55,342 nucleotides of DNA. Origin: Bacteroidales bacterium. GTDB taxonomy: Bacteria; Bacteroidota; Bacteroidia; Bacteroidales; Muribaculaceae. A program made the translations under genes and the position numbers. The notes beneath the pieces were generated by a model. That model saw only the letters and a program-made list of their open reading frames with translations. It did not search any database and was not told the DNA's origin. Of the stretch, positions 1,459-50,324 are shown one piece after another; position 1 is the stretch's first letter; every line of letters begins with the position of its first letter. The stretch is taken from the NCBI GenBank assembly GCA_020859845.1, contig JAJBVL010000064.1, positions 1-55,342 of the forward strand, in the 5' to 3' direction.

Positions 1459-3015
1459 TTATCTGAAGTTGCCAGGGGAGAAGAGCCCATAATCGGGGTC
1501 ATCAGCCTGGAGGTTGCCGTTGACGAGCGCTGGGTTGCGTTCGGGTTGCCATGTGCGCACCTTGATTACAGGCTCATCAGGATTGTTGAGGTCAACCATC
1601 AGCATCAAGTAGCCCGTGTCGCCATACGACGATGAATAGTAATCCTGGCGTATCTGTATGGTATAATACTCGCCACCCTTACCCATGCGCACCACGTCGT
1701 TGTTGGCAAAGCGTATGTTGATATATTCATTTGAGTTGAACACACGGTCAAGACGCTCCAGATATTGGCTCTTGGTCAGCGTGGTCTTCTCCACCTGGGC
1801 CCGCGTCATGTAGACACCCATATCGTTGCTCATAGTCTGCGCCGGCTTCACCACGTGGCCCACGACGATAATGGCGTTGTCGTCAAAGATGCTCCTCACG
1901 TAGTCGAGGCGCTTGAGGGCAAATGCCGTCTTGTAGTTTTCGAGGAAGGTGACAATAGCCATCTTCGACTTCTCTTTCCACACCGACCCTCCAAGACTAA
2001 ACACATCGCGCTTGGCCTCAGCACCCAGCCCGAAGGCCAGACATTCAATCAATCCATCGGCATTGAAAGTGAAGGTGACATCCTCGGTAAAGGTCTTCTT
2101 GTTGTTGGGAAACGAAAAGGTCATCCTTAGGCTGCGACACACCACTCTTCCGCCACCAAGATCATAAAATTCATATTCCTGATTTCCCAGCAGTCGAGCC
2201 TGCCCATAGCGAAGCAGTCGTTGCATCATCTCATACCCCTCAGGGGTGAAGAGTGAGGCCAGATGTTGCGAGGCCTTCGACTTGCGGCCTGAGAGCGAAT
2301 CGATGATGGCGTGGATAGAGCGGTCGTAGCGCTTGGTGTCGGTGAGCGGCTCTATGGAGATGTCGGCGGCCTCTTCGGCCAGTTGCTGCTGTAAGCGCCT
2401 CGCGTTTTTGTCGACGGCGCGACGCAGGTCAGCCTCCTTAGAGAGACGTTTTGTAGCCTCGTCGTAGTTGACATCCTCTACTGGCGCCAGTTGCAATGCC
2501 AGCAACGAGTCGATTTTCATCTCGTTGCGATAGCGATACTCCAGCTCCAGTTTTAGCTCACGAGCATCGACGCCGGGTGATACGCGGATAGCCGCCGTGC
2601 CGTCCTTGGCATGGTTAAGCAAGCCCCACTCTGTGCCATCCCAGAGGGCGAAGTCGAGCCCAGTGGCCGGCTTGCCACAATACGTGAAAAAGAGCGTTGC
2701 CTCATCGTCGTTGACCTCCGTCACAGCCACTTTCACGCTGTCCATCAACGCAGATATCTGCTGCGGCAGCCATGAGTTAAGTTCCACCATCGTGCCTTGA
2801 TGGTTGAAGGTCATCGAGTCGGGAGCCTCGGGGGTTTGGAGCAGTAGCGATGCCCAGTAATAGTAGCGCAGGGCATCGTCGACCTTGGCCTTATGGGCAG
2901 CGCGCTGACCTGAGCGCACCATGTCGGCCACCTTAGCCTGAAGAGGGTCAGTTTTAGCACTGATGGCAGCGGCTCCTGCCACTGCCATCAGCAAAAATAA
3001 TAAGATGTGTTTCAA
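1459..3015 (-). CDS. Exported protein of unknown function, last gene of the left operon
   Basis: 518 aa with a clear signal peptide (MKHILLFLLMAVAGAAAISA, cleavage expected near residue 20). The N-terminal half mixes helical segments and a beta region. Residues of about 350-490 (from VTFLENYKTAF through the YYTIQIRQDYY stretch) resemble an NTF2/SnoaL-like fold in pattern, with a tryptophan- and proline-containing end, but I cannot name the family with certainty. It starts 10 nt after the stop of the T9SS-sorted protein gene, so it is very likely the terminal gene of the 13-gene minus-strand operon. Because the same operon carries a cytoplasmic kinase and phosphatase, it may be a periplasmic partner. 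That is inference from context only. Confidence 0.75.
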   Translation of the reverse strand: MKHILLFLLMAVAGAAAISAKTDPLQAKVADMVRSGQRAAHKAKVDDALRYYYWASLLLQTPEAPDSMTFNHQGTMVELNSWLPQQISALMDSVKVAVTEVNDDEATLFFTYCGKPATGLDFALWDGTEWGLLNHAKDGTAAIRVSPGVDARELKLELEYRYRNEMKIDSLLALQLAPVEDVNYDEATKRLSKEADLRRAVDKNARRLQQQLAEEAADISIEPLTDTKRYDRSIHAIIDSLSGRKSKASQHLASLFTPEGYEMMQRLLRYGQARLLGNQEYEFYDLGGGRVVCRSLRMTFSFPNNKKTFTEDVTFTFNADGLIECLAFGLGAEAKRDVFSLGGSVWKEKSKMAIVTFLENYKTAFALKRLDYVRSIFDDNAIIVVGHVVKPAQTMSNDMGVYMTRAQVEKTTLTKSQYLERLDRVFNSNEYINIRFANNDVVRMGKGGEYYTIQIRQDYYSSSYGDTGYLMLMVDLNNPDEPVIKVRTWQPERNPALVNGNLQADDPDYGLFSPGNFR

Positions 3016-3025
3016 AACGATTGAT

Positions 3026-6308: not shown

Positions 6309-8726
6309 TTAAATTTCAGGGGTTGGGTTATCGCCCTCAGAGGGGATATTGTAGGAGGTAGTGGTCACCTCTATAGTTTCAGAAGTGTCACTAATGGTTT
6401 CATCGTAAATAGGATCTTCATAAAAAAGTGAAGCATATATTCTATACTTAGAGCCAGGAGTGAGACCAGTAATGTTAGAAGTAAGGTAACCATTAGCAAT
6501 GGAACCCTCAAAATATTTAATATCCCCTGTATCACTCGTGACAACATAATCTCCATAGATTTCATCTATAGCAGATATGTTAGTAGTAAAAGCTGTGGTG
6601 ATACTCACGCTCCTGTTGGTAAGGGTACTTTCAACTATTTGAGGTGTGCCTAATGAAACCCAATGGCCAAACTCGGTTGTAGCTATCTCAACATTACTGT
6701 ATCCAGTCACATCATTATGCCTATCCAACGAAGCAGCCACCCTTATATAATAGGTTGTAGTATCTTTCAAATCCGATATAGTATAGGAAAATGTATTGGA
6801 AGAGGAAACTGCTGTATTTGCCCAAAAATCATCTTCGGTAGGGGGATTATTCACATCCGAACACAAAATTCTCACAGAAGACACCTCTTGAGAAGCGGTA
6901 ACAGTACCATTACACGTAATCTTTTTATGGCCTCCGACCGCTGTTAATGTTACCTCAGGGACATCTACCGCTGGTTGACTCACAGCACAAACTGCCCTCT
7001 GTCCTGTGGCAGACTCGAATACAACTTCCCCTGACAATGTTTCTAAGCCAGCAGTATATGCAGGATATATTCTAATGGCTTCTCCTGGTTCGTTGAGGCT
7101 CCCTGAGCCAGAGGTTGGTGTGACAACCAACCAATCACTTGGATATGAAGTTACCGTCCAAGCCGAGGAGGATAGGAGATAAATTGTGGCTGAATCATCA
7201 AAACCAAAAGTGATTTCCTCGGTGCTAAGCTCGAACACTACGAGGGCTTCTTGGTTGACGGTGATGGTCTCGCGGATGGTCTCGTCGCCGACGGTGAAGT
7301 CTACGTAGACGTAGCCGGTGCGGGCTTCGCCAGAAGTATTCTCAGAAACGGATACTTCCACGGTGGTCTTGCCCTCACGCACCTTGATCCAATTGTCGGA
7401 GGGCGTGGCGGTCCAGTCGGTTGAGCTGGCCGTCACCATCACTTCCTGCGCCTCGGTAGAGTTGTAGGCAAAGCTAAGCTCGGTGGGCGACACTGCGAAG
7501 GCGGAGCTCGTCTGCGTCACCTTCACCTCCTGGCTGGCAGAACCATCGAGCAAGGCAACCATTACGACCGCCTCACGCGAAGCGCCCGTGGCGTTGGCCG
7601 TCACCGACACCTCCACGCTGGCACCCGTGGGAGCAGCCTCGCGATCCTGACTGTCAACGCTACACCACTGGCTGGCCTCATCGTTGACCGTAACCCTCCA
7701 TTCGCCCTTGGCCACCACAAATATCTCCTTAGACGCGCTCTCCTGAGTGAAGTCAAGCGAGCGGGTCAGCACTGAGAGCTGCGCGTTAGGATCGGCCTGC
7801 GTGATGGTGATGGTCTTTGCCTCCACCAACGAGTCGTCGGCCTGTATCTTTATATTCTTGGTGCGCACCTCGCCCGTGGTGTTCTTGGCCACGGTAATCT
7901 TCACTTCGCCGTCGCCTGTGCCGCTCGTCGGTTCCAGAGTCACCCATTCGGGATTGGAAACCTCGGTGAGCGACACCGTCCAACCGACGTTGCTCTTGAT
8001 GGAGAGCGTTAGGGTCTCTTCGTTGCCACTGCAGCTGAAGCCATCCTCTGGCTCGATATTGATATATCCGCTCCCTGCCGTCTGCTTCACGAGAAGGATA
8101 CGCTGCTGCGAACCATTGTATTGCAGATACACGTGGCCTTCGCGGTCGTTGGGCGTGGTGTTGGCCGTGGCCGAGATTACCAGAATGTTGTCGTCGTTTG
8201 ACTGCTTGGCAGCGCTGAGCCAACCGACGTCGTTGCCGTCAGTGTCGGTGCATTTCTCCACCGCCCAAGCTACGTTGGTCGTCACTCTGGTAGTGTCGGA
8301 AGTAGCCGAACTTGCCAGGGTGAAGCTATTGCGCCCTGTCTCAAACGTGATGCCCGCAGGGTCTTGCGTCAGGGTGATGGTCTGGCGTATGTCGCCACTG
8401 GTGATGATCAACGTGGCCTCGCGCGAGTCAGAGGCCGATGTGTTGGCGAGGTAAGATATCGCAACTCCTCCATCGGGCGAGCCCGTGCCGCTGGTTGGCG
8501 AAGCCGTTACCCACGTGCTGCTGTTGGTGGATATCGACCATTGGCCTGTGGCCGTAAGCTGGAGGCTGAATGACCCAGCCGAACTACCAACGGTGTTGGA
8601 AGAAGGATAGGTCGAAAGTAGATTCTTTTCTACGAGATAGTCCATCTCGTCGCTGGTGCAGGAGAGCGTGGCAGCTATGAGCACCAGCGAGGAGAGGAGG
8701 GCCGAAAAACCGTGTGAATATTTCAT
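6309..8726 (-). CDS. Multi-BACON-domain lipoprotein
   Basis: 805 aa. The N-terminus has a hydrophobic segment ending in LSC near residue 23, an acceptable lipobox. About six consecutive BACON domains follow, roughly one per 90 residues from 40 to 590. They are recognised by the repeated pattern WxxxxPSxG(TG)...V..N.....R...V...........I.V.Q (for example WVTASPTSGTG, WVTLEPTSGTG, WLVVTPTSGSG and the closing ITITQ or ITVNQ). A fibronectin-III-like region occupies about 595-790 and the end is PTPEI. BACON domains bind glycans or mucin, or serve as spacers, in Bacteroidetes surface proteins. The first part of the gene (minus-strand 8726 to about 7240) is GC-rich and the rest is AT-rich, a mosaic pattern. 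It lies between the PEGA and beta-helix genes with gaps of 12 and 22 nt. Confidence 0.88.
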   Translation of the reverse strand: MKYSHGFSALLSSLVLIAATLSCTSDEMDYLVEKNLLSTYPSSNTVGSSAGSFSLQLTATGQWSISTNSSTWVTASPTSGTGSPDGGVAISYLANTSASDSREATLIITSGDIRQTITLTQDPAGITFETGRNSFTLASSATSDTTRVTTNVAWAVEKCTDTDGNDVGWLSAAKQSNDDNILVISATANTTPNDREGHVYLQYNGSQQRILLVKQTAGSGYINIEPEDGFSCSGNEETLTLSIKSNVGWTVSLTEVSNPEWVTLEPTSGTGDGEVKITVAKNTTGEVRTKNIKIQADDSLVEAKTITITQADPNAQLSVLTRSLDFTQESASKEIFVVAKGEWRVTVNDEASQWCSVDSQDREAAPTGASVEVSVTANATGASREAVVMVALLDGSASQEVKVTQTSSAFAVSPTELSFAYNSTEAQEVMVTASSTDWTATPSDNWIKVREGKTTVEVSVSENTSGEARTGYVYVDFTVGDETIRETITVNQEALVVFELSTEEITFGFDDSATIYLLSSSAWTVTSYPSDWLVVTPTSGSGSLNEPGEAIRIYPAYTAGLETLSGEVVFESATGQRAVCAVSQPAVDVPEVTLTAVGGHKKITCNGTVTASQEVSSVRILCSDVNNPPTEDDFWANTAVSSSNTFSYTISDLKDTTTYYIRVAASLDRHNDVTGYSNVEIATTEFGHWVSLGTPQIVESTLTNRSVSITTAFTTNISAIDEIYGDYVVTSDTGDIKYFEGSIANGYLTSNITGLTPGSKYRIYASLFYEDPIYDETISDTSETIEVTTTSYNIPSEGDNPTPEI

Positions 8727-10350: not shown

Positions 10351-11112
10351 TTAATCACATACGGGGCGAAGGGTCATCCCCACCATGCGATTGCCAAGAC
10401 TTTGCTGCCAAGAGTCGCCGTTAAACATCAGGTAGTAAGAGTTCTCATTACCACCATCGTCGGGCGAGGAAGTCCAGTAGCTCCCCGAGGTCCACACTTC
10501 ATTGTCGTCGGGCAGACCCAGCAGATTGCCGGCAGCGGGGAGGAAGATGGAGTTGTGGTTTGGGCCTATCACACGATAGCCCCACACGCCCTCTTCGCGG
10601 GTGAAAATCCACTGGCAGCGTGTGAGCAACTCATCCACCTCCCAGCGCGTAGGGAGTCGCCACGCCCCATGCCACAGAGCTCGAGCAGCGTCGTACTCCT
10701 CATCGCCTGAGAAGTCGGGGCAATCCTCGAGCCACGTCTTGCTGTTCTGAAAGAAAGGCACGGCGCTCACCGTGGTCTCACCCCAAGCATAATATGCCCC
10801 CATATCCTGTGGCTTGGCAGCGCCAACGTTGCTCGTGGCCCATTTGATGCCGAGGCCCAGGTCAACATACTCATGGCCTTCTACCGTGCCAGTAGCCACA
10901 CGATTGTATCTGATTGCAGGAGCAGCTTGGGCGTTTACAGTTGGGGGGACTGATTGAGTAGTAGAGGGTTGGGGGTTATCCTGATGTTTTATAGAATCAA
11001 TGCGATGTTTCACCTCCGAGGGAAGTTTCTTGGTTTGCGCTCCTGCTGTGAAGGTAAATAGCGCTATCACCGCGAGGAGGTATATTAGTCGTAAGCGTTG
11101 CATAGTCGTCAT
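10351..11112 (-). CDS. Exported FISUMP (Fib_succ_major)-like domain protein
   Basis: 253 aa with N-terminal signal peptide (LIYLLAVIALFTFTAGAQ). From residue about 78 to the end it matches the Fib_succ_major/FISUMP pattern: YVDLGLGIKWATSNVGA, YYAWGET, WRLPTRWEVDELL, GNSIFLPAAG-type block, YWTSSPDD and MTLRPVCD. The domain is common on Bacteroidetes surface proteins and its ligand is not known. The start codon abuts the stop of the kinase gene with no gap (11112/11113), implying translational coupling. A proline/glutamine-rich linker of about 40 residues separates the signal peptide from the domain. A FISUMP protein coupled to a kinase suggests the exported product may be a ligand-binding partner for the kinase ectodomain; this is inference. 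Confidence 0.85.
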   Translation of the reverse strand: MTTMQRLRLIYLLAVIALFTFTAGAQTKKLPSEVKHRIDSIKHQDNPQPSTTQSVPPTVNAQAAPAIRYNRVATGTVEGHEYVDLGLGIKWATSNVGAAKPQDMGAYYAWGETTVSAVPFFQNSKTWLEDCPDFSGDEEYDAARALWHGAWRLPTRWEVDELLTRCQWIFTREEGVWGYRVIGPNHNSIFLPAAGNLLGLPDDNEVWTSGSYWTSSPDDGGNENSYYLMFNGDSWQQSLGNRMVGMTLRPVCD

Positions 11113-12630
11113 TTAATCAATGAGGGCACCATGGGAATAGTGGGCTATCTCATGGCCCTCGCTATCGTAGAAGGTGCCGGTATAAAAATTCTCTTCGTTG
11201 TCAAAAGTCCCTTCGTAATATGAGCCATTGGCCTCACTATCTGTCCACGTGAAGCGTCCTTGGCTCATGATGTCGTTGGCAAATGAGCCTTTAAACTCAC
11301 CGTCGGTGGTGGTGTAGTGACACTCTCCTTCGCGAAAGCCATGACTATAACGTCCTTTATAGAGACCTCCTCCATCATATCCCTTCCCTATACCTTCGCC
11401 ATGAGGAATGCTATCCGCCGTACACTCTCCAGAATATACAAACGCTACACCGCGACTGTTGACATACTTCATGTTCTTAACCATGATAGGCCCATTATCG
11501 TCGCCTCCTTCACCAAAGAGGATGAAAGAAATAGCCGCTATGGCTATACACCCTAAAACGGCAACGGCCCATATCCACCACCGGCTGCCTTTGGTCGTGG
11601 AGGCTCCAGAAGTGGCTATCTGATTCTCATCAAAATCTGTGGCCGTGAGCGACACACCAGTCTGTTCGGTAGGCTCTCCAGAAGCAATAGCTTTAGAATG
11701 AGAGCCTTCTACCACCACGGCGTTGACTACCTGCTCCCCGTCAAGAATTGAGAGAAACGACGGGATATCCTGCGGTCGCTCCTCCTTGCGGATATTCATG
11801 GCAGCCTCTATCGCTCTCACCACCGAGGATGAGGTTGCTGCTGGCAGCGGAGGAAGAGGGGTGCCAGAGGCTAAGAGAGTAGACGCTGGAGGAGTGGAGC
11901 CTGTCAGAAGTTTATAAAAAGTTGCGCCCAGAGCATAAATGTCGACCGAGGGACGAAACTGCCCTACGTCGTTGGCCATCTGCTCCAGGGGCGCATAGCC
12001 GGGCGTCTTGCCCATCAGCGTGGAGGTGTTTTCGCCATTCACCTCGTCATACTGCTTCGAGGCGCCGAAGTCGATAAGCACGGCGCGATCAGAGGAGTCT
12101 ACGAGGATATTGCTTGGCTTTACGTCGAGATGAAGGCGATTGTGGGTATGAACATAGTTGAGGGCTTCGGCCACTTGACGTATATAATTGACGGCACGCC
12201 ATTCGGGCAACTGACCTTCATGGGCTACGATATCGCTCAATGACAGGCCTTCGATATAATCCATTACGAAATAGGCCGTTCCGTTTTCCTCAAAGACGTC
12301 GCTCACTCTCACTATCCCTGGATGGGAAAGGCGCGAGAGGGCACGGGCCTCGTCGACAAACTTCTGGCGCAGACGATCCACGAGTTCGCGCTTGCTCAGG
12401 GTGCCTACGGTGACATGGGCTGTAGTCTCATCGCGGTTGCAGAAGTCTTTGACAAAGAATTCCTTGATGGCCACGCGCTTGGCAAGCATTATGTGCTCAG
12501 CCTCGTAAGTGCAGCCAAAGCCTCCACTGTTGATGAAGCGTACTATCCTATACTTCCCACCTTGGAGTATAAGCCCAGCAGGAAGATATGCTTGTCCCTT
12601 TACGGCCACTGGTTTACCTTGAATCGACAT
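11113..12630 (-). CDS. Membrane Ser/Thr protein kinase with C-terminal MORN repeats
   Basis: 505 aa. The kinase domain spans about 26-290: glycine loop NSGGFGCTY, ATP-anchoring K56 in VAIKEF, catalytic loop HLDVKPSN with D169, DFG at 187-189, and APE replaced by APLEQM. The usual HRD is HLD, which removes the arginine that couples to activation-loop phosphorylation, so this kinase may be constitutively active or controlled otherwise. One transmembrane helix lies at about 350-372 (WWIWAVAVLGCIAIAAISF). MORN-type repeats follow at about 400-490 (YKGRYSHGFREGE, FKGSFANDIMSQG, YYEGTFDNEENFYTGTF), predicted to be periplasmic. It overlaps the PP2C gene by 17 nt and abuts the FISUMP gene, giving a tightly coupled phosphatase-kinase-exported protein block. 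Confidence 0.92.
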   Translation of the reverse strand: MSIQGKPVAVKGQAYLPAGLILQGGKYRIVRFINSGGFGCTYEAEHIMLAKRVAIKEFFVKDFCNRDETTAHVTVGTLSKRELVDRLRQKFVDEARALSRLSHPGIVRVSDVFEENGTAYFVMDYIEGLSLSDIVAHEGQLPEWRAVNYIRQVAEALNYVHTHNRLHLDVKPSNILVDSSDRAVLIDFGASKQYDEVNGENTSTLMGKTPGYAPLEQMANDVGQFRPSVDIYALGATFYKLLTGSTPPASTLLASGTPLPPLPAATSSSVVRAIEAAMNIRKEERPQDIPSFLSILDGEQVVNAVVVEGSHSKAIASGEPTEQTGVSLTATDFDENQIATSGASTTKGSRWWIWAVAVLGCIAIAAISFILFGEGGDDNGPIMVKNMKYVNSRGVAFVYSGECTADSIPHGEGIGKGYDGGGLYKGRYSHGFREGECHYTTTDGEFKGSFANDIMSQGRFTWTDSEANGSYYEGTFDNEENFYTGTFYDSEGHEIAHYSHGALID

Positions 12631-38435: not shown

Positions 38436-38446
38436 TACCAAGCATT

Positions 38447-41400: not shown

Positions 41401-42133
41401 ATTCAAGGAAGAGTATTTTGACACCGACATGAAGCCTGTGGCCAAGAAGCCTGCCGGCTATTCATCGCTGGAACGCACCTACGACGACCGTGGCCTGCAG
41501 ACCGAAGTGAAATTCTATACCCCCTCGGGCCTTGCCTGCCGATGGGTGCCCACCTACACTCCCAACGGCTTCCTGACCGAGGAGCACTTTGAGGACAGCA
41601 ACGGCAAGCTCACCAGCGGCCTCGCCACCACTTTCTCCAAGATAGTCTACACCTACAGCGACGATGGTGGATCGGTGACCGACATAGCAATCTACGATGC
41701 ACGCGGCCAGCGCCTCCCCAACAAAGTCAACAAGGCTCTTGGTCCACAGCGCGAGAGCATGCTGCTCGACTTCAATGGTGCCAAGGGAAGCTCGTCGGAG
41801 CAGCAACAGGCCAACCCCACAGCTTCAGCCGCCAGCTCATCGTTTGGCGACTGGCGCGACGCCATCCAGCAGATGGCCGACGCTTGTCCCGCCACCCAGG
41901 GCGATGGTTGCACCATGACCAAGGTGACATTCACCTCCTCGTCGGTCGACATCTTCATGAAGTTTGACCAGCTGAGCATCTATGAGATGGACGAAGCCAC
42001 CAAGGACAATATCCGCACTACGCTCGTCGAGCAGTTTAAGCCCCAGATACGAGGAATGCTCCCCATCCCCTCCTCCGTAAGGCTCACCATCCATATCCTC
42101 GACAAGGGCGGACGCCAGCTCTTCACCTTCTAA
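38447..42133 (+). CDS. Giant membrane Ser/Thr kinase with periplasmic YD/RHS-like repeats (paralog 1)
   Basis: 1228 aa from ATG 38447; the open frame upstream overlaps the FHA gene and is not homologous to the paralog. Kinase domain about 10-265: GAGAYGEVWLA, K43, VHQDIKPDN with D134 (HQD, not HRD), DFG 152-154, GPERF. One transmembrane helix lies at about 274-294. Outside the membrane a conserved collar follows (YYKDITEVYGVPQGIGRLSASEQ). About 800 residues of YD/RHS-like repeats follow, each near 20-45 residues with YDDxGNxxxQTYxD (YDDHGNMVEQVF, YDDYGNILTETYF, YDEIGNLKKQTYL). The C-terminal 85 residues (WRDAIQQMADACP...) form a separate domain shared with paralog 43635-47315. A very large repeat ectodomain suggests glycan or protein binding. 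Followed by a small exported partner gene. Confidence 0.92.
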   Translation: MTLNPGTLFNGRYLLRKRLGAGAYGEVWLATDTKADNLVVAIKILSQGDALDTQGIQDFQREFTQVFNLKHSNLLTPSGYDIADGVPFLVMQYCENGSCSSMTKLMEEADVIKFIHDVAAGLEYLHDHNIVHQDIKPDNILVDDNLNFMVTDFGISVREENIGSTGGFGGTRAYMGPERFDHQTLPASDIWALGATITELLTGDAPYGDHGGLLQAQGEPLPELPANLQPEVRGMILDMLNADPAKRPTAHELRQKTELYQETGKWKRESRKPVYITLAAVIGALIIGAAIWIWDYNRTKVKYYKDITEVYGVPQGIGRLSASEQRHRDRTYRLEYSKGKLRSMKLVNSKGNVDASHIQNSKVAETRYYYTDKGDLDYKALYNRAGHLMYKEDYDDALKTATIRQADEFSTEMCLPLDENNNLGAAQQRSLISRYLMTYDDNGYLVEKRFAGISNTPACDGENIYGYRYSYDDHGNMVEQVFLGADYQPTTTKPGFSSIRIVYDDADNRVEQTYYNLDGSRGADENNVSRMAITYDDYGNILTETYFNVNDEPTISHAHGAHGIILSYNSDGMTERLGFIDENGNPTVANVGISAQTYEYDDNGYLTRQTYVDETGKPMTAVWEGNVPMAYIVWENDDLGQQVSQAMYDALDQPVATQGYDVMKTEYNDRGLPTDMYYFDADGSKALSGGTVHHVHREYDEFDNPTLTAFFDADEKPASPNGIASSVKHEYNRQGALIKETYYDLEGNPLKGPNFSASMSYEYDEIGNLKKQTYLNENGEPMMINGFSAQVHEYDPKTNLEITMTAVDDKGNPINSRHTAYDAHGNVVKLYFTDKNGRMAPNTVVDNTVYDANNRAVEIYATDLSGKRINLPHRSYSSVKKAYDKAGNNVEQTVWGADGKAAVDENGFHRLVQEYDSRGNVVRQLNYDTSGQLIAPSKSVADVRVSYDQWNNKVEERHYNDKGEPMLAPDGTFTSRYAYDKRNRPFKEEYFDTDMKPVAKKPAGYSSLERTYDDRGLQTEVKFYTPSGLACRWVPTYTPNGFLTEEHFEDSNGKLTSGLATTFSKIVYTYSDDGGSVTDIAIYDARGQRLPNKVNKALGPQRESMLLDFNGAKGSSSEQQQANPTASAASSSFGDWRDAIQQMADACPATQGDGCTMTKVTFTSSSVDIFMKFDQLSIYEMDEATKDNIRTTLVEQFKPQIRGMLPIPSSVRLTIHILDKGGRQLFTF

Positions 42134-42197: not shown

Positions 42198-43619
42198 ATG
42201 CTCCGCAAATCCCTCCCCCTCCTGATAGCGCTGCTGCTATTTCCTCTCATGGCTCTTGAGGCCGTGGAGCTCTCGAGCGAAGCCGTGCGCTTTCGCAACA
42301 ACCTCTTATCCTTCCTGCGCGAAGAAGGTTATACCCCCGACACCAACTCGGATGGCAACCTCGTAGTGTTTGAGAAAGGCGGCGAGACCTACTACGTGTT
42401 CATTAAAGGCTCCACGCCTCTCTACATCAGTGTGTCAATGGATGAGATAAAGTATCCCGGCGAGCCCAACATGACAGCCATGATGTTTGCAGTGGAGACA
42501 GCCAACCGTCTCACCGATTATGTCAAGAGCACCATCTACATGCCTGATGAGGGCACCGTCCAGGTCGACTTCGCCATTGAGATGCCATGCCACTCCGCCG
42601 AGGAGTTTCGCTACGTGCTCAACACCTGCCTCAACGCGCTTAAGGAGACCCGAGCCACCTACCTCGAGAACTACAACGAGCTTAGTGGCCAGCTTCCCGA
42701 CGTCATCACAGCCCTCTCCAACGGCGAATTTGGAGATATGAGTTCTGTAGGGAGCAGCTCGCCCATAAAAATCACAGAGGTAAAGGTGGCCAATGTCAAT
42801 AATGACAGCAGCGTATTCATGGCCGATTATGGAGAACCAATCTACGCCAGCAACTCTCGATATCTTAAGCCAAAACTTATCGTCAACTGCTCAAGTCCGG
42901 GAGAATATACCATTGCATATCGACTCTATGACTCGGCTGGCAACCTCAAGCGCAACACCTCCACATCGCCCGAGGGCTATACCTACCAGCAGAAAATTAA
43001 TCTCACTCAAGGCACCAACACTGTCACCATGGGTGGTTGGGGATCAAATACAGATGGTTTCTGGAAGGAAGGCACCTGTCGCTTTGAGTTTTTCTACGAC
43101 GGCGACCTACTTTATACCCAAAATGTACCCGTCCTCGGCGCATCGGCAAGTGCCTCGGCAGCAAGTAGTTCATCAAGCTCCAAGCCTACCTCAATAAAGA
43201 AGCGTGGCTCCAACTCGGCATCCAGCTCGTCGCTGCCCTTCACCTACAATCGATGCGACATCATCAACAGCCCAGCCGGTGGCGGCGACCTGACCCATCA
43301 GTCGGAGGGCGCAAAGTTTACCACCAGCAACACTGGCTTTATCTCGCCATGGCTCTACCTCACGGCCTTGAAAGATGGGAAGTATCCCCTCGAGTATAAG
43401 CTGATAGGCCCCGATGGCGACATGATGCGCCAGATCTACTCCACCGACAATTATACGTGGGAAGGCGAGGTTGACCTCAATAAAAACACCTCTATCTACG
43501 TCATCATGGGCCTCTACGGACCCTACAACTACGACCGTCAATGGCGCAAGGGCGAATACACCTTTGAGTTCTACCTCAACCACAAGCTCTTTGACAAGCA
43601 TTCCTTCACCATCAAATAA
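42198..43619 (+). CDS. Exported partner of kinase paralog 1, two copies of a beta domain
   Basis: 473 aa with signal peptide MLRKSLPLLIALLLFPLMALEA. The N-terminal domain (about 25-165; FRNNLLSFLREEGYTPDTNSDG, EMPCHSAEEFRYVLN) is also present in the exported protein at 47379-48317 and resembles small alpha/beta chaperone-like folds, but no family name is certain. Two copies of a beta-sandwich domain follow (about 195-315 and 345-473), each with PGEYTIAYRLYD..G or GKYPLEYKLIGPDG and an ending like CRFEFFYDGDLLYT or YTFEFYLNHKLFD. A Ser-rich linker separates them. Directly between two giant kinase genes, 64 nt after one and 15 nt before the next. Probably a periplasmic ligand or regulator of the kinase ectodomain. 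Confidence 0.82.
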   Translation: MLRKSLPLLIALLLFPLMALEAVELSSEAVRFRNNLLSFLREEGYTPDTNSDGNLVVFEKGGETYYVFIKGSTPLYISVSMDEIKYPGEPNMTAMMFAVETANRLTDYVKSTIYMPDEGTVQVDFAIEMPCHSAEEFRYVLNTCLNALKETRATYLENYNELSGQLPDVITALSNGEFGDMSSVGSSSPIKITEVKVANVNNDSSVFMADYGEPIYASNSRYLKPKLIVNCSSPGEYTIAYRLYDSAGNLKRNTSTSPEGYTYQQKINLTQGTNTVTMGGWGSNTDGFWKEGTCRFEFFYDGDLLYTQNVPVLGASASASAASSSSSSKPTSIKKRGSNSASSSSLPFTYNRCDIINSPAGGGDLTHQSEGAKFTTSNTGFISPWLYLTALKDGKYPLEYKLIGPDGDMMRQIYSTDNYTWEGEVDLNKNTSIYVIMGLYGPYNYDRQWRKGEYTFEFYLNHKLFDKHSFTIK

Positions 43620-43634
43620 CCTTCTTTTTCTATT

Positions 43635-46600
43635 ATGACTCTCAACCAAGGCTCCCTGTTTCATGGCCGCTACCTGCTGCTCAAGCGTCTCGGCGCCGGA
43701 GCATCGGGCGAGGTGTGGCTCGCACGCGACACCCGCGCCGACAACCTCCTGGTGGCCATCAAAATCTTCAACGAAACCCAAGAGCTCGACACGATAGGCC
43801 TGCAAAACTTCCGCCGCGAGTTTACCCAGGTGTTCAACCTCAAGCACTCCAACCTCCTGCCGCCATCGGCCTACGACGTCTGCGATGGCTGTCCCTATCT
43901 CGTGATGTCGTATTGCGAGAACGGCTCCTGCAGCACTATGGCCGAGCATATGGAGGAGGGTGACATCATCAAGTTTCTCCACGACGTAGCTGCGGGTCTG
44001 GAATATCTCCACGACCACAACATTGTCCACCAAGACATTAAGCCCGACAATATCCTCGTTGACGACAACCTCAACTTCATGGTGACCGACTTTGGCATCA
44101 GTGCTCAGGAGGGCAATATCAACTCCACGGGAGGATACTCGGGCGGCACGCGCGCCTATATGGGTCCGGAACGATTTGAGGGTCAGACCACAACGGCCAG
44201 CGATATGTGGGCTCTCGGTGCCACAGCCGTAGAGCTAATCACTGGCACACCCCCCTATGGCGACCACGGCGGCCTTGTGCAAGCGCAGGGCGAGGCTCTC
44301 CCCGAGCTTCCCGCCAACCTGCAGCCCGAGGTGAAGGGCATGATACTCGACTGTCTCAACCCCGACCCCTCCAAGCGCCCCACGGCCCACTACATCCGCC
44401 AGAAGACCGAGCTGTATCAAGACACCGGTAAGTGGCATCGCGAGTCGAAGAAAAATCTCTACGCCATCATCGCCACGGCTGTGGCCTGCATCGTGCTTTG
44501 CGGCGCCTTCTTCATCTGGGACTTCACCCGCACCAAGGTGCGCTACTATAAAGACTATACCGAGGTCTACGGCGTGCCTCAGGGTATCGGGCGCGTCTCG
44601 GCGAGCGATCAGAGCCATCGCCGCGAGACCTTCCGCATGGAGTATAAGCGCGGCAAGCTGCGCCGCGTGGCAGTAGTCAATGCCCAAGGCAAGGTGATTG
44701 ACTTCAGCGACACCGAGAGCAAGGTGAGCCGCTATCCCGACGTGTACTATTACTACACCGACGGCGGCAAGTTGGACTACACCCAGGTGTACGACGCCAA
44801 CGGACGCCTGCTCTTCAAGATGGACTACGACGACGCCCTGCGCACCGCCACCTTCCGTCAGCCCGACGAGTATGGCACGGAGATGAACCTCGTGACCAAC
44901 GCCAACCAGCTCCACGCCGACAACTCCGACAACCTCCGCGACCGCAGCTCCATATCGCGCTACCTCTTGACCTACGACGACGATGGCCACCTCATAGAGC
45001 GCCGCTATGCCGGATTCCAGAACGTACCCGCCAGCGACAAAAATAACATCTTCGGACAGCGCTACACCTACGACGACCGTGGCCGTAAGATAGAGGAAAT
45101 CTACATCGACAAGGACGGCCAGCCTACGAGCGACGACAATGGCCTCTCCAAGAAGGTCTTTGGCTACGACGATGATGACAACTGGATCACCGTCAGCTAC
45201 CTCAACATCGAGGGAGGCCCCGCACACGACGGCAACAACTGCACCCTCGTCAAGATAGAGCCCGACAAGTATGGCAACCGCGTGACCGAAAAGTATTTCA
45301 CCGCCGACGAGACCCCAGCTCTGCGTTCGGACAACAACGTGTTTGGCTACGAATACCACTACAACGACCGTGGCCAGCTGGAGCGCTTGATGTTTCTCGA
45401 CGAGAAGGGTGGCTACATGGCCAGCAACCAAGGCAACTCTGGATTGACGTTTAAGTACAACGACGATGGCTTCCAGATAGAGCAGACCTGGATCAACGAC
45501 GAGCTGAAGCCCATGATGGCTCAGGTGGATGACGACTCCTATGCCATCCAGCAGTTTACTGTCAACGAGCATGGCCAGCCCCTCACGCTCCGCATCCTCG
45601 ATGCCGACGGCTATCGTCTCAACAGCGTGGATGGCTACAATGAGTTTCGCGTCACCTATACTCCCGATGGTCTTATCGAAGATATCACCTACTGGGACGA
45701 GGACGACAAGCCAGTGGCTGTGGGCGGTCTCTACCACCGTATGCATCGCGGCTACGATGAGCTAAACAACCTCATCGAAGAGTCGTACTACGACATCGAC
45801 GACAAGCCCACCACCTGCGATGGCATCGTGGCCAAAAACGCCTTTGAGCGCAATCGTCAAGGCTCGGTGGTCAAGGCTTCCAACTACGACGCCGCTGGCA
45901 ACCTCGTCAACGGCACCGACCTCGTGGCCACCACAGAGCGCACCTACGACGAGCTTGGCAACGTGAAGACAATCTCCTTCTACGACAGCAAGCATCAGCT
46001 CACCAACAGCACCGAAGGCATAGCCGAGAAGGTGTATGAATACGACCCCAAGACCAACTTCGAGACCCGCGAGGTGCACTACGACAACCAGAAGCGCGTA
46101 AAAGGCGACTACCGCTACTTCTACGATGCTCGTGGCAACGTAGTGAAGAATTATACCCTCAACGGCTCGGGAGCCCTGCTTCCAGGGACGGTGGTCGACA
46201 ACTATGTCTACGACAAAAACAACCGTCAGGTGGAATACTACGCCACCGACCTCAAGGGCAACCGTGTCAGCATGAACGGCATGACGGCAAGCACCATCAA
46301 GTTTGTCTACGACCGTATGGGCAACATCGTGGAGCGCACCTTCTGGGGTCCTGATGGCAAAGCCGCCGAGGACAATATGAAGACCCACCGCCGTGTGCAG
46401 GAGTTTGACAACATGAGCCGCGTCGTCCACGAGATGAGCTATGGTGCCGATGGCAAGCCTGCAAAAGGCACAGGCGCCAATCCTGAGGGCCGCGTGAAGT
46501 ATGACCAGTGGGGCAACATCACCGAACTGACGGCCTACGACGGCTATGGTCGTCCAGCTGTTGGAGCCGCTGGCTTCTTCATGCAGCGCACCACCTACGA

Positions 46601-47315
46601 CAGCCATCGCCGTCCGCAGCGCATAGAGTTTCTCGACACGCAGATGAAGCCCGTCATCAACAAGGAGGAAGAGTATGCCACGAAGGAAAACGTCTACGAC
46701 GAGCGTGGCAACGTCACCGAGAGCCGCTTCTATGGCACCGGCAACAAGCTTCTCTATAAATATCGCGCCACCTACAACCCCAAGGGACGAGTGACCGAAG
46801 AGCGCTTCCTCGACGCCAACGACAAGCTCTCCAACGAGATAAGCGGCGTGGTGGCTCGCCTGGTGGTCGACTACGACGACACTGGCATCACCCCCACCAA
46901 GCGCACATTCTATGGCGCCGATGGCACATCAGTGGCCACCCAGACCTGGAACACCAAGACCAACGAATGGAACGACCTCGTATTCTCTGGCTCCTACTCT
47001 GGCTCCAACGCCAACGTAGCGGCCTCCACCACCGACTGGCGCCAGAGCGTCAACGCTGCTGCTCGCGAGTGTCCAGTAGAGTTGGCCGACGGTCTGCAGT
47101 GCCAGAGCATCACCTCCACATCTACGTCGGTGACGATGACGCTCAAGTTTACGGGCGTGAGCATCTACGAGATGAATGAGGCGCAGAAGGAAGAGCTCCG
47201 CAGCCTCATCCGTGGCGAGAAGAATACCTTCCGCAAGAACCTGAATCTCCCCTCCTCGGTGAGCTTCACCATCCGCTATGTCGACAAGGCAGGCCGCGAG
47301 ATTGGCTCCGTATAA
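43635..47315 (+). CDS. Giant membrane Ser/Thr kinase with periplasmic YD/RHS-like repeats (paralog 2)
   Basis: 1226 aa, the same architecture and nearly the same length as paralog 1: kinase about 10-265 (GAGASGEVWLA, K43, HQDIKPDN with D134, DFG 152-154), TM about 275-295, collar YYKDYTEVYGVPQGIGRVSASDQ, YD-like repeats (YDDRGRKIEEIYID, YDRMGNIVERTFW, YDERGNVTESRFY) and a terminal domain (WRQSVNAAARECP...FTIRYVDKAGREIGSV). The kinase core is almost identical to paralog 1 at the DNA level: 98 of 100 nt over the catalytic loop to DFG (44004-44103 versus 38816-38915). The ectodomains differ at many positions. The pattern suggests a shared intracellular output with different external recognition. 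Confidence 0.92.
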   Translation: MTLNQGSLFHGRYLLLKRLGAGASGEVWLARDTRADNLLVAIKIFNETQELDTIGLQNFRREFTQVFNLKHSNLLPPSAYDVCDGCPYLVMSYCENGSCSTMAEHMEEGDIIKFLHDVAAGLEYLHDHNIVHQDIKPDNILVDDNLNFMVTDFGISAQEGNINSTGGYSGGTRAYMGPERFEGQTTTASDMWALGATAVELITGTPPYGDHGGLVQAQGEALPELPANLQPEVKGMILDCLNPDPSKRPTAHYIRQKTELYQDTGKWHRESKKNLYAIIATAVACIVLCGAFFIWDFTRTKVRYYKDYTEVYGVPQGIGRVSASDQSHRRETFRMEYKRGKLRRVAVVNAQGKVIDFSDTESKVSRYPDVYYYYTDGGKLDYTQVYDANGRLLFKMDYDDALRTATFRQPDEYGTEMNLVTNANQLHADNSDNLRDRSSISRYLLTYDDDGHLIERRYAGFQNVPASDKNNIFGQRYTYDDRGRKIEEIYIDKDGQPTSDDNGLSKKVFGYDDDDNWITVSYLNIEGGPAHDGNNCTLVKIEPDKYGNRVTEKYFTADETPALRSDNNVFGYEYHYNDRGQLERLMFLDEKGGYMASNQGNSGLTFKYNDDGFQIEQTWINDELKPMMAQVDDDSYAIQQFTVNEHGQPLTLRILDADGYRLNSVDGYNEFRVTYTPDGLIEDITYWDEDDKPVAVGGLYHRMHRGYDELNNLIEESYYDIDDKPTTCDGIVAKNAFERNRQGSVVKASNYDAAGNLVNGTDLVATTERTYDELGNVKTISFYDSKHQLTNSTEGIAEKVYEYDPKTNFETREVHYDNQKRVKGDYRYFYDARGNVVKNYTLNGSGALLPGTVVDNYVYDKNNRQVEYYATDLKGNRVSMNGMTASTIKFVYDRMGNIVERTFWGPDGKAAEDNMKTHRRVQEFDNMSRVVHEMSYGADGKPAKGTGANPEGRVKYDQWGNITELTAYDGYGRPAVGAAGFFMQRTTYDSHRRPQRIEFLDTQMKPVINKEEEYATKENVYDERGNVTESRFYGTGNKLLYKYRATYNPKGRVTEERFLDANDKLSNEISGVVARLVVDYDDTGITPTKRTFYGADGTSVATQTWNTKTNEWNDLVFSGSYSGSNANVAASTTDWRQSVNAAARECPVELADGLQCQSITSTSTSVTMTLKFTGVSIYEMNEAQKEELRSLIRGEKNTFRKNLNLPSSVSFTIRYVDKAGREIGSV

Positions 47316-47378: not shown

Positions 47379-48317
47379 ATGAAAAGATCCCTGCTCCTCC
47401 TCTCTCTCATCATGCTTCTCCTCCCCTGCTCTATGCCAGCAGGCGCCGAGCTATCGACAGAAGTAAAGACGTTTCGCACCAACCTCACCAAGTTTCTGCG
47501 CGAAGAGGGCTACTCCCCCACCAGCAACAGCGATGGCTCGCGCATCGACTTTGAGCATGGAGGCCTCGACTACTTCATCTACCTCTCAGGCTCGATGCCT
47601 GTGCAGGTGACGATGCGCGTAGAGGGTCTGAGCAACGAGGACACCAACCCGGTAGCCCTCTTGATGGCCTGCAACGACATCAACAAGGATGCCTACTACG
47701 TCAAGACCTACATCACCGAACTTGGCGACGAAGGCTCCACGATGATTGTCATCGAGATGCCGTGTCACACGGCCGAGGAGTATCGCTACGTGTTCTACGA
47801 CTGCGTGAAGGCTCTGTCGAAGGCACGTCAGGACATCATTGATAAGTACACCGAGTATGAGGAGCAGCTTGGCGACACCTCCGCGTCATCCTCTTCTTCA
47901 TCTTCATCCTCTTCATCGGCATCGCGCTCCACGGCGGGCGTCACCTTTGTGGGTTGCACCGCTGAGGATATAGACCACAACGAAAACCATATCAAGGAGA
48001 GCGAAGGAGCCAAGATACGCGCCACGACAGCCGAGTATGTGTTCCCCAACGTCAAGATCAAGTGTACCAATCCTGGCACCTACAAGATTAAGTACAAGCT
48101 GTTTGGTCCCAACGGTCAGTTGATCCGCCGTATCAACGCCGAGCAGGGTTTCTCATCCGAGGAAGAAGATATAGAGCTCAGGTCAGGCACCGAAGTCTAC
48201 AACCTCAAGGGTTGTCTTGGGCCAAAGAACAACAACTACTTTGACGCTGGCAACTACAAGTTTGAGATCTACCTCAACGGCAAGCTCTTCGGCACATACA
48301 ATTTCCGCATCTATTAA
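47379..48317 (+). CDS. Exported partner of kinase paralog 2, one copy of the beta domain
   Basis: 312 aa with signal peptide MKRSLLLLSLIMLLLPCSMPAGA. The N-terminal domain matches the partner at 42198-43619 (FRTNLTKFLREEGYSPTSNSDG, EMPCHTAEEYRYVF). A poly-Ser linker (about 168-185) leads to one beta-sandwich domain (about 190-312; PGTYKIKYKLFGPNGQLIRRI, YKFEIYLNGKLFGTYNFRIY). The paralog has two such domains. Its position after the second giant kinase and 15 nt before the third kinase repeats the kinase-partner alternation. The poly-Ser codons form a run of TCx repeats that could slip. Confidence 0.82.
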   Translation: MKRSLLLLSLIMLLLPCSMPAGAELSTEVKTFRTNLTKFLREEGYSPTSNSDGSRIDFEHGGLDYFIYLSGSMPVQVTMRVEGLSNEDTNPVALLMACNDINKDAYYVKTYITELGDEGSTMIVIEMPCHTAEEYRYVFYDCVKALSKARQDIIDKYTEYEEQLGDTSASSSSSSSSSSSASRSTAGVTFVGCTAEDIDHNENHIKESEGAKIRATTAEYVFPNVKIKCTNPGTYKIKYKLFGPNGQLIRRINAEQGFSSEEEDIELRSGTEVYNLKGCLGPKNNNYFDAGNYKFEIYLNGKLFGTYNFRIY

Positions 48318-48332: not shown

Positions 48333-49667
48333 ATGGAATCTAATAGTCTTTTCCACGATAGATACTTCCTGGAGCGCCTGCTGGGCCGCGGCAACTTTGC
48401 CGAGGTGTGGCTCGCCAAGGACACCAAGACCGACATCATGGTGGCCCTGAAGATTTACGCTCCCGCCACCGGCCTCGACGATGCCGGCCTTAACGTCTTT
48501 GCCCGCGAGTTTGCCCTCGTGGTGGACGCCAACCACAAAAACCTCCTGCGCCCGCTCTACTACGACACCTGCGACCGCAAGCCCTACCTCGTGCTGCCCT
48601 ACTGCCAGAACGGCAGCGTGATGCGCCGCGTGGGCAACTTCACCGAGGAGGACGCCTGGCGCATGCTGCGCGACGTGGCCTCGGGCCTCGCGTGGCTCCA
48701 CGCCATGAATCCCCCGGTAATCCACCAGGACATCAAGCCGGACAATATCATGCTCAGCGACTCAGGCAACTATCTCATCACCGACTTCGGTGTTAGCACC
48801 CACCTCAAGTCGACGCTCCGCAAGAGCATGAGCGCCGCCTTCTCGTCGGCCGGCACCATTGCCTATATGGCTCCCGAGCGCTTCAGCGCCAACAACACCC
48901 CCATCATGGCCAACGACATCTACTCGCTGGGCGCCACCGTCTACGAGATGCTGACGGGCGACACCCCCTTTGGCGACGATGGCGGCCTGCGCCAGCACAA
49001 GGGTGCCGAGGTGCCTGTGCTTCAAGGCCCCTACTCCGACCAGCTCAAGAAGGTGATCGACAAGTGTCTCAAGACCAATCCCTGGGAGCGTCCCACCGCC
49101 GAGCAGCTTGAGAAGTATGCCGAGACGGGTCTCGAGGGTGGCCAGATCCACTTCGTCGACGAGAAGACCTTCTTCCAGAAGTATAAATGGATTATCATAG
49201 CCGGCATCGTAGTGGTGCTATGCGGCATTGCCTTAGGCATCGTGGCCATCGTGCGCCACCACAAGGCCGAGGAGGAGCGCAAGGCCCTTGAGGCTATCGA
49301 GGCCGCCGACCTCGACGTGCAGAGTGCGGCGATGGCTCTCGTGGCTCGCGGCGATAGCCTGATGGCCGTGGGCGATGTGCATGAAGAAGGCTATGAGACA
49401 TCCTACGTTGAGGCCTATCAACTGATGCAAGAGGCCATCGACTCCAAGAGCCAACTCCAAGGCGAGGGTGCCACGCTGAGCGTAGAGCCAAAGGCTCAGA
49501 GCCAGAAGCAACTCCTCGAGGGCAAACTCATCGAAGCATACGGAGCCATAGCCAAGAAGGCCGCGCTCTTCAGCGACGAACCAGAGGTGGCAGCCGACTT
49601 CTACGACCGCGCCTCCAAGATTGAAGCCGTCATTGCCATCCCCGACAGCCTCAAAATCTCACGATAA
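48333..49667 (+). CDS. Membrane Ser/Thr kinase with short helical ectodomain
   Basis: 444 aa. Kinase domain about 8-265: GRGNFAEVWLA, K40 in VALKIY, VIHQDIKPDN with D133, DFG 151-153, APERF. It shares with the two giant kinases the HQD loop, the segment GD.GGL.Q..G...P.L and the RPTAEQLEKYAETG end, so the three form one subfamily. The TM helix is at about 285-307. The ectodomain (308-444) is about 135 residues, predicted helical and TPR-like in character, with no YD repeats. A shorter, perhaps ancestral or simplified member of the series. It lies 15 nt after the partner gene and 21 nt before the BACON-type exported protein gene. Confidence 0.93.
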   Translation: MESNSLFHDRYFLERLLGRGNFAEVWLAKDTKTDIMVALKIYAPATGLDDAGLNVFAREFALVVDANHKNLLRPLYYDTCDRKPYLVLPYCQNGSVMRRVGNFTEEDAWRMLRDVASGLAWLHAMNPPVIHQDIKPDNIMLSDSGNYLITDFGVSTHLKSTLRKSMSAAFSSAGTIAYMAPERFSANNTPIMANDIYSLGATVYEMLTGDTPFGDDGGLRQHKGAEVPVLQGPYSDQLKKVIDKCLKTNPWERPTAEQLEKYAETGLEGGQIHFVDEKTFFQKYKWIIIAGIVVVLCGIALGIVAIVRHHKAEEERKALEAIEAADLDVQSAAMALVARGDSLMAVGDVHEEGYETSYVEAYQLMQEAIDSKSQLQGEGATLSVEPKAQSQKQLLEGKLIEAYGAIAKKAALFSDEPEVAADFYDRASKIEAVIAIPDSLKISR

Positions 49668-49688
49668 CCTACATAACACCTTACTATA

Positions 49689-50324
49689 ATGATCAACCGT
49701 ATACGCATCATCATTATCCTCACCATCGCCTCTGTGGCCTTGGCGCTCAGCGCCGAGGCCCAGCAGAGCGCTTGCGACAAACTCTTCAACGACGGTGTGC
49801 GCTACCATCAGACGATGACTATCGCCTCGCAGCGCAAGGCCATCCAGAGCTTTGAGAAGGCCAAGGCCTGCTACGACTCCGAGGCCAAGAAGACGCAGTG
49901 TGACGACCAGATAAAGGCCTGCCGCAGCATCATCGCCACCCTCACCGAGCGCGAGGAGAAGACCCCTACCCCCGCGCCATCCACCGTTGACTCAGTAGCT
50001 GCCCAGCCTGCCAAGCAGGTGGCCGAGGTGCCGGCCGCTCCCATCCCCACCCAGATACTGGAGGCCGACAACACCTACCTGAAGTTTAAGGCCAAGGGCG
50101 GCGAGTTTAAGAAGGTCAACATCACCTGCGACTCCAACGACTGGTATGTCGAGCAGAAGCCATCGTGGATAGAGTGTACCCGCTCAGCGGATCAGCTCGT
50201 GATCGAAGCCTCGCAAAACCAGGCCAAGGAAGAGCGTGGTGGCACCATCGTCATCCGCTGCGGCGACAAGACCGTCTCCATCACGGTCATCCAAGAGAAG
50301 GCCAAGAAATTTGGCATCATCTAA
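49689..50324 (+). CDS. Exported protein with helical repeat and BACON-like C-terminal domain
   Basis: 211 aa with signal peptide (RIIIILTIASVALALSAEAQ). Residues of about 28-80 are helical and cysteine-containing (ACDKLFNDGVRYHQ, AIQSFEKAKACYDSEAKKTQCDDQIKACRSI), TPR-like in spacing. After a Pro/Ala linker the C-terminal domain (about 125-207) fits BACON: LKFKAKGGEFKKVNITCD, WYVEQKPSWIECTR, LVIEASQNQAKEERGGTIVIRCG and VSITVIQEK. Third exported partner of the alternating kinase-partner series. It also parallels the BACON lipoprotein of the left arm. The last gene of the right arm; a hairpin overlaps its stop codon. Confidence 0.82.
   Translation: MINRIRIIIILTIASVALALSAEAQQSACDKLFNDGVRYHQTMTIASQRKAIQSFEKAKACYDSEAKKTQCDDQIKACRSIIATLTEREEKTPTPAPSTVDSVAAQPAKQVAEVPAAPIPTQILEADNTYLKFKAKGGEFKKVNITCDSNDWYVEQKPSWIECTRSADQLVIEASQNQAKEERGGTIVIRCGDKTVSITVIQEKAKKFGII

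Follow-up and report, generated by a model that had tools for sequence, protein, structure and literature searches.

FHA domains read phosphothreonine, and in actinobacteria the kinase, PP2C and FHA logic of PknB/PstP with GarA/OdhI acts on targets that are cytosolic and metabolic. In the type VI secretion system (T6SS) of Agrobacterium, Thr14 of TssL, an inner-membrane protein, is phosphorylated by PpkA and bound by Fha (PMC3953482; PMC5995506). Here, we analyse a stretch of 55,342 nucleotides (the window) from a Bacteroidales bacterium of the Muribaculaceae, one contig of a 2.9-Mb genome, in which two arms of phosphosignalling genes flank a middle block. The left arm is a complete cassette, named system A, with an FHA-transmembrane-Zn-ribbon protein (FTZ), an EF-hand protein, a GPGG protein, an exported caspase, a Zn-ribbon-FHA protein, a PP2C and a kinase. 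The right arm starts with three A-type genes (FTZ, GPGG and Zn-ribbon FHA) and continues with a different module, system B, composed of Zn-ribbon-FHA, kinase-FHA, FHA-transmembrane (TM)-trypsin and PP2C-TM-LysM proteins and further kinases. On balance, sequence comparison favours two distinct phosphosignalling systems across the envelope, A with a proposed switch in the GPGG tail and B of parallel logic. System A is apparently undescribed.

Gene identities were confirmed by translation and by Pfam scans of 38 window proteins. The genes that an earlier note on this DNA had named in both arms are indeed present, among them a caspase-like protease on the left and a trypsin-like protease on the right. 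The system A genes of the left arm are as follows.

16321..17091, minus strand: FTZ protein with N-terminal FHA, TM segment and C-terminal Zn-ribbon (PF00498, 20.8 bits against a cut-off of 20.7)
15803..16291, minus strand: short protein with a TM segment, a single canonical EF-hand loop and DYTNDANVDDFLA at the C-terminus; its family occurs in 19 of 72 loci
14811..15806, minus strand: GPGG protein with predicted cytosolic tail carrying QDDATQL, TM segment and GPGGVFQWHG domain; no canonical EF loop in the motif scan
14005..14763, minus strand: caspase-like protease with a signal-like N-terminus and SGHG and DACYSG motifs, which we take to be catalytic (PF00656, 3e-20)
13408..13980, minus strand: Zn-ribbon FHA protein with an SRAH signature (PF00498, 29.8 bits)
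12614..13405, minus strand: PP2C phosphatase of the A family (Pfam and best-match scores)
11113..12630, minus strand: Ser/Thr kinase with a TM segment (Pfam and best-match scores) and a C-terminus without Pfam match that we read as MORN-like

A profile of five GPGG proteins was compared with genome contigs; 114 stretches matched, 97 of them encoding relatives. The top 80 of these correspond to 78 loci, of which 72 remained once six near-copies were dropped. Open reading frames (ORFs) were labelled by phmmer seeds at an E-value of 1e-4; four of the 72 loci have no ORF labelled GPGG and many contigs are short. Since the scan picked loci by the GPGG protein alone, the partners are unselected. PP2C was found in 59 of the 72 loci, Zn-ribbon-FHA in 57, the kinase in 53, FTZ in 46, the caspase in 44, LytTR in 31 and the EF-hand protein in 19. 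In the subset of long loci, namely the 38 with more than 5 kb on either side of GPGG, the corresponding counts are 37 for PP2C, 32 for both Zn-ribbon-FHA and kinase, 27 for both FTZ and caspase, and 18 for LytTR. Whenever a partner family was found in these 38 loci, a copy lies on the GPGG strand. All five partner families are present in 20 of them, four in nine, three in six and two in three. As a background, 31 whole genomes (the window's own and 30 relatives) contain 77 kinase and 17 PP2C matches in total. A common gene order runs from LytTR through FTZ, kinase, EF-hand, GPGG, caspase, Zn-ribbon-FHA and PP2C to a further kinase. When distances between loci are compared pairwise for the five families, they are correlated (Spearman 0.51-0.73), and for each of the ten pairs of families none of 500 Mantel shuffles was as high. 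Kinase, PP2C, FHA and caspase genes thus recur near GPGG, a co-occurrence for which the earlier note had proposed a profile search. Its idea of a conserved system, apparently without a name, in which Ser/Thr phosphorylation genes are coupled to the envelope is supported by the joint presence of these genes in other genomes.

Other genes were seen beside the A families. Many A loci have a stand-alone protein next to FTZ, which we take to be LytTR-type (e.g. L013:14671-15057 and L016:3880-4257), but such a protein is missing from both arms of the window. Two exported-looking proteins recur as a pair: one of about 350 residues and LRR-like by eye (leucine-rich repeat), the other of about 128 residues. 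They are typically encoded directly before GPGG (e.g. L017:8324-9767) and were found in 23 and 20, respectively, of 81 clustered loci, near-copies included. Past the A cassette of one genome (L016:5077-11329) are, all named by eye, a TatC-like gene, three short RRxALKRIG-type Tyr-Ser-repeat proteins and two radical-SAM-like proteins; this set looks like a modified-peptide locus tied to system A, and a relative of the TatC-like gene also adjoins A genes in locus L050. Finally, a NusG/UpxY-like antiterminator (by eye) lies near one end of four A loci (L019, L027, L030 and L052); such antiterminators occur in surface polysaccharide operons.

The GPGG and EF-hand (GPGG/EF) proteins have a common topology. 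With a lenient threshold, a hydrophobic segment was detected in 89 of 92 non-redundant proteins, and with a stricter one a segment beyond residue 30 was found in 40 of 78 GPGG proteins. The 15 residues before the segment contain 3.4 Lys+Arg and the 15 after it 0.5, a bias that fits a GPGG N-terminus inside. A canonical EF loop is present in 66 of the 92 proteins, compared with 3.8 in total in shuffles (maximum 9). The tails themselves were analysed in 68 GPGG proteins, three with overlong ORF starts being left out. The threonine motif [DEN]xTx[LIVFYM] occurs 94 times in these tails, compared with 14.1 in shuffles (maximum 28 in 2000 shuffles). It is carried by 57 of the 68 tails (12.8 in shuffles, maximum 23), and 28 tails have two or more copies (1.2, maximum 5). 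The motifs beyond the first amount to 36 (6.3, maximum 16), so that shared descent of one site is no explanation. Asp occupies position +3 in 36 motifs, typical examples being NDETIFD, NEATQFE and EDTVYD. The serine version of the motif stays at chance level (9 against 8.2), which suits FHA domains. On the side of the readers, SRxH is present in 59 of 65 Zn-ribbon-FHA proteins, and the FTZ family profile (A6) matches the solved FHA domains of GarA, OdhI and TB39.8. The caspases have GHG in 49 of 49 cases and a signal-like N-terminus in 46 of 49.

These families, their conserved linkage, the topology bias, the repetition of the threonine motif, the EF-hand loops, the export signal of the caspase and one PP2C-TM-caspase fusion are what can be read from the sequences, and they suggest a mechanism for system A. 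A membrane Ser/Thr kinase would phosphorylate threonines in the short cytosolic tail of GPGG, the GPGG domain and calcium-binding loops being located outside the inner membrane. The FHA proteins, soluble Zn-ribbon-FHA and membrane FTZ, would dock on the tail phosphothreonines, PP2C would remove these, and this phospho-switch could set the state of a complex that includes the exported caspase-like protease. The tail threonines are thus predicted kinase sites and putative binding sites of the FHA proteins, calcium or the GPGG domain a candidate external input, and the caspase a candidate output. Hence, system A seems to link intracellular protein phosphorylation to an outside caspase-like enzyme and a calcium-binding membrane protein. 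System B would follow a parallel logic with other parts, namely kinases with long exported repeats, a PP2C with an external LysM and an FHA-TM-trypsin protein with its protease domain outside. It seems to combine phosphorylation with a different protease on the outside and a phosphatase that binds the wall. More tentatively, GPGG could be a calcium-binding type II membrane protein that serves as a docking rod, offering FHA proteins several phosphothreonine sites, and together with PP2C directly gates the exported caspase, the whole forming a mobile cassette and a new trans-envelope switch of Bacteroidota.

Several observations weigh against the tail-switch model of system A. Caspase and FTZ are each absent from 11 of the 38 long loci. 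FTZ also occurs without GPGG: in eight loci read around FTZ matches of an order-wide search, GPGG is present in four, PP2C in five and kinase in five. Locus L015 has FTZ and no GPGG, and genome G002 has FTZ and a kinase and no GPGG. In L127 and L128, FTZ is flanked by LytTR only (L128 and L122 are close to a contig end), suggesting that FTZ-LytTR is a smaller unit, also found alone. The strict threonine motif is lacking in 11 of the 68 tails and in the right GPGG of the window; outside the order, it can be recognized by eye in four of six tails, Runella included, and is absent from the other two. Shuffling is an imperfect null for related tails, and folded families likewise contain more of the pattern than their shuffles (123 against 38 in Zn-ribbon-FHA, 42 against 11 in LytTR, 62 against 30 in FTZ and 294 against 188 in kinases), an excess that we put down to conserved columns. 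The presence of the motif goes weakly with that of PP2C (p = 0.012, uncorrected, five tests) and not with that of kinase, FHA proteins or caspase. Lastly, some signatures are incomplete: of the 61 FTZ proteins, only 27 have strict SRxH, compared with 52 for a looser form, and the strict Cys motif is found in 25 of 49 caspases (the loose one in 49 of 49), and HxDxKPxN and DFG in 86 and 106, respectively, of 124 kinases.

The C-termini of the GPGG/EF proteins bear on a different role for the cassette. A C-terminal DYx[ND] is present in 58 of the 92 proteins, compared with 7.6 in shuffles (maximum 16). System A might control how surface proteins are exported, assembled or processed. The caspase would then either trim this conserved acidic DYxND tail at the C-terminus or mature exported proteins encoded nearby, with phosphorylation determining the timing. 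Export of the caspase and recurrence of the exported-looking pair of about 350 and 128 residues (23 and 20 of 81 loci) are in line with such a role; the C-terminal motif is, however, absent in 34 of the 92 proteins and is a putative cleavage site only. We regard this processing role as unlikely.

The system A cassette is patchily distributed. Counting the window's own genome, the 393 genomes searched within the order include 13 matched by the FTZ profile, from 12 of 207 genera, and 14 matched by the GPGG profile, from 13 of 207 genera; the right-arm FTZ was found in four of 61 relatives. At the level of the phylum, GPGG matched four of 345 genomes, the other three being of the same class and of other orders. 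The earlier note's conserved Bacteroidales system is therefore right as to co-occurrence but too broad as to occurrence within the order, and the system extends beyond it. Four loci were read in the three genomes of other orders, all with FTZ, GPGG, an FHA protein, PP2C and kinase, and two with the caspase. The kinases of L146 are on the opposite strand. In L145 and L147, automatic labelling gave the middle FHA protein as 'STK' (6e-7 and 8e-6, respectively); the L147 protein, the one of the two scanned with Pfam, has an FHA match. In L145, a single protein of 521 residues combines PP2C and caspase, separated by a hydrophobic stretch (PP2C-TM-caspase). Moreover, a Runella rosea HYN0085 plasmid (NZ_CP030851.1) encodes consecutively an FHA protein, a hypothetical protein, another FHA protein, PP2C and caspase, and the hypothetical protein is a GPGG relative by tblastn, with VGPGG and a WHG-like sequence. 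These loci and the plasmid indicate that system A has a long history in the class, is patchily distributed and has been carried by a plasmid in at least one case.

Patchiness and a plasmid copy would also be expected of an anti-phage or abortive-infection system, in which phosphosignalling would release a lethal caspase, and both caspase and kinase match PADLOC models. The kinase matches, however, look generic to the kinase fold, and PADLOC has no match for the right FTZ, the right GPGG, the left Zn-ribbon-FHA or either PP2C. Among the ten proteins scanned, no complete known defence set was found, the only matches being of kinase, caspase and trypsin type. Since 46 of 49 caspases have a signal-like N-terminus, the enzyme is probably not cytosolic, and we consider a defence function of system A quite improbable.

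Two database records require comment. Locus L025, from a record titled Clostridium sp., holds a Bacteroidales-like A cassette and is probably a mislabelled bin. A GPGG relative is also encoded by a 5-kb 'Bacteriophage sp.' record from human faeces (L149, MT838606.1), probably bacterial DNA; being unverified and unannotated, this record was not counted as phage carriage of GPGG.

The right arm of the window comprises the following genes.

27922..28872 (open frame from 27880), plus strand: A-type FTZ protein, start probably ATG 27922
28897..30078, plus strand: A-type GPGG protein with two canonical EF loops and a tail without threonine motif
30020..30682, plus strand: A-type Zn-ribbon FHA protein (SREH), no Pfam FHA match at 0.01
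30797..31825, plus strand: double Zn-ribbon FHA protein of system B (PF13248 and PF00498), start probably ATG 30902
31914..33209, plus strand: Ser/Thr kinase with C-terminal FHA, system B (Pfam and best-match scores)
33337..34863, plus strand: FHA-TM-trypsin-like protease of system B with TAQHC and GNSGGP motifs and TM at residue 162 (PF00498, 4e-15; PF13365, 8e-11)
34894..35832, plus strand: exported protein of system B without Pfam match (relatives in six of nine B loci, six of six signal-like)
35863..37485, plus strand: PP2C-TM-LysM phosphatase, system B (Pfam and best-match scores)
37515..38435, plus strand: FHA protein with two C-terminal hydrophobic segments (FHA-TM), system B (in one of nine B loci)
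38351..42133, plus strand: kinase-TM-YD-like repeats, first of a pair, system B (Pfam and best-match scores)
42198..43619, plus strand: exported protein (only PF16403, below cut-off)
43635..47315, plus strand: kinase-TM-YD-like repeats, second of the pair, system B (YD_repeat_2x, 23.5 bits, cut-off 15.8)
47379..48317, plus strand: exported YbjN-domain protein (PF10722, 2e-6)
48333..49667, plus strand: kinase with TM segment, system B (Pfam and best-match scores)
49689..50324, plus strand: exported BACON-domain protein at the end of the arm (PF13004; BACON-like protein in three of nine B loci)

The earlier note had read the locus as two arms of one system, derived from a single ancestral operon by duplication and divergence. 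Three gene families are common to both arms in the same order, and each arm has a PP2C, a kinase and a protease. The homology it assumed across the arms is real: single pairwise comparisons gave 4e-19 for the first gene (FTZ), 2e-17 for GPGG, 6e-31 for Zn-ribbon FHA and 9e-20 for PP2C, and the Zn-ribbon FHA proteins of left and right have in common the strings GRNVVGR and ATIQIPC. Only three right-arm genes, however, belong to left-arm families, the rest forming a separate module. In BLASTP comparisons, the left PP2C scores at best 254 bits with A members and 94 with B members, and the left kinase 442 and 99. The right-arm proteins score higher with B: 298 bits against 108 with A for PP2C-LysM (35863..37485), 447 against 104 for kinase-FHA (31914..33209), and 546 against 152, 617 against 144 and 317 against 173 for the kinases at 38351..42133, 43635..47315 and 48333..49667, respectively. 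Judged by these scores, PP2C and kinases of the right arm are members of a different set of families from those of the left arm, a difference that the earlier note could not see.

Trees point in the same direction. They were built for 61 FTZ and for 66 Zn-ribbon-FHA sequences, and in neither case did any of 200 bootstrap trees place the left and right copies of the window as sisters. The approximately unbiased (AU) test rejects left and right FTZ as sisters (p = 0.008). For Zn-ribbon-FHA, a left/right pair is compatible with the strongly supported branches taken by themselves, and several end branches are long. In the window, the two GPGG copies differ, the left one having the QDDATQL tail and no canonical EF loop and the right one two EF loops and no tail motif.

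System B stands alone elsewhere. FHA-trypsin occurs in nine of 295 genomes of the order and in three of 61 relatives, the own genome being counted in both. Nine B loci from other genomes were found via FHA-trypsin, which is thus present in 9/9 by construction; PP2C and kinase were found in 9/9, the second Zn-ribbon-FHA in 8/9, the 34894-type protein in 6/9, BACON in 3/9, and FHA-TM and YbjN in 1/9 each. GPGG, FTZ, A-type Zn-ribbon-FHA and caspase were found in none of these nine loci. Conversely, FHA-trypsin, the second Zn-ribbon-FHA, the 34894-type protein and FHA-TM are each absent from all 72 A loci, and YbjN is present in three. Three of nine B genomes, the window's own included, also hold an A gene; without it two of eight do, with a p of 0.05 that is rough, the draws differing in size. 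Since B stands alone elsewhere, and given the best-match scores and the trees, the right arm is best described as B preceded by three A-type genes. Duplication of one operon is thus ruled out by the tree, best-match and linkage tests as far as such tests go, and we hold it to be very improbable. Splitting the locus into two systems averts its misreading as a duplication.

The kinase and exported-protein pairs 38351/42198 and 43635/47379 are consecutive and look by eye like a local duplication inside B; the products of 42198-43619 and 47379-48317 look alike by eye, and both paired kinases match the same B relatives. If the second Zn-ribbon-FHA starts at 30902, the gap between the A-type trio and the B block is 30683-30901. 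A promoter-like site (27871-27902), defined by what we take to be the promoter consensus, lies just upstream of the A trio. The window has two such matches compared with 0.32 expected, a number reached by six of 100 shuffles, and the second (17338-17368, plus strand) does not precede any A gene.

Two further genes of the left arm have the following positions.

10351..11112, minus strand: accessory exported protein, presumably FISUMP (PF07603 below cut-off; relatives in 15 of 72 A loci)
6309..8726, minus strand: BACON protein (Pfam)

The left-arm genes at 1459-10358 encode three exported proteins, BACON and PEGA. The genes at 1459, 3026 and 5387 and PEGA have one match each among A loci, taken to be the window itself, and BACON has none in 72; with no labelled relatives in A loci, they are not counted in system A. 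The middle block between the arms encodes an NhaP-type antiporter, FtsY, RimO, a chorismate-binding enzyme, two GDSL proteins and an MBOAT protein, FtsY and RimO being named from sequence and not by Pfam scan. Five of the six Pkinase matches of the genome at E 1e-10 or better fall inside the window, a clustering above chance. On a different contig of the same genome, another kinase and PP2C are close together (G000:C24:46724-49582). Beside the left arm, the open frame at 17555-18271 matches only the end of AAA-ATPase_like (PF09820, 159-201 of 201) and is probably a truncated gene. Past the right arm, genes at 50890-54943 encode a DUF3575 protein, a protein that matches DUF3868/OmpA weakly, and a fimbrillin; they probably form a fimbrial set. 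No RNA element reached the gathering score in the window.

In the open-access literature searched, no paper describing system A or B by title or abstract was found, nor was a family model or paper for GPGG. GPGG and FTZ have no NCBIfam match above its cut-off. In PHROGs, three GPGG proteins gave nothing below 0.03 and the right FTZ no match; the EF-hand protein reached 0.005 at best, the matches being all of unknown function. Among solved structures, GPGG has weak matches only (E 0.21 or worse, EF-hand proteins among them) and the 34894-35832 protein none at 0.5. Passages of PMC7159879 describe conflict systems with kinase, PP2C or FHA parts, which differ from the system A set. Literature searches likewise found nothing on Ser/Thr phosphosignalling in Bacteroidota, which seems little explored. 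In the compact recurrent gene set of system A, the GPGG tail is predicted to be the substrate, the kinase its writer, FHA proteins its readers and PP2C its eraser, with the exported caspase as a candidate output. The role of bacterial caspases and the kinase substrates of gut bacteria thereby become directly testable.

Each of the known systems resembles a part of system A. The left caspase has the caspase fold of EACC1-associated prokaryotic caspases but scores 79.8 bits with caspase_w_EACC1 (NF047832), below the cut-off of 140, and differs from them by its signal-like N-terminus and by its kinase, PP2C, FHA and GPGG partners. The actinobacterial system has a similar kinase, PP2C and FHA logic, and its GarA and OdhI are, with TB39.8, those matched by the FTZ profile. 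Pfam scans of the five window kinases gave no PASTA match, and the one kinase tested with NCBIfam PknB_PASTA (43635-47315) reached 137 bits against a cut-off of 450. As the earlier note had maintained, system A is not a T6SS: no T6SS family was found among the 38 window proteins scanned, and the sheath gene VipB (PF05943) in none of 18 genomes, the control being positive only in E. coli with no divergent Bacteroidota sheath as control. The threonine phosphorylation pathway of T6SS (PpkA, PppA and Fha) is nevertheless the closest working model, as both have a kinase, a PP2C and an FHA protein. In that pathway they act on a threonine near the N-terminus of TssL, in its tail, and the threonine motifs of the GPGG tail are the putative counterpart in system A. 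Kinase, PP2C and FHA are encoded together as in that pathway, both in the window and near GPGG in 32, 37 and 32 of the 38 long loci. The likeness is one of logic. Unlike in T6SS, the tail of system A belongs to the GPGG family and often repeats its motif, and an exported caspase, EF-hands and LytTR take the place of a secretion machine.

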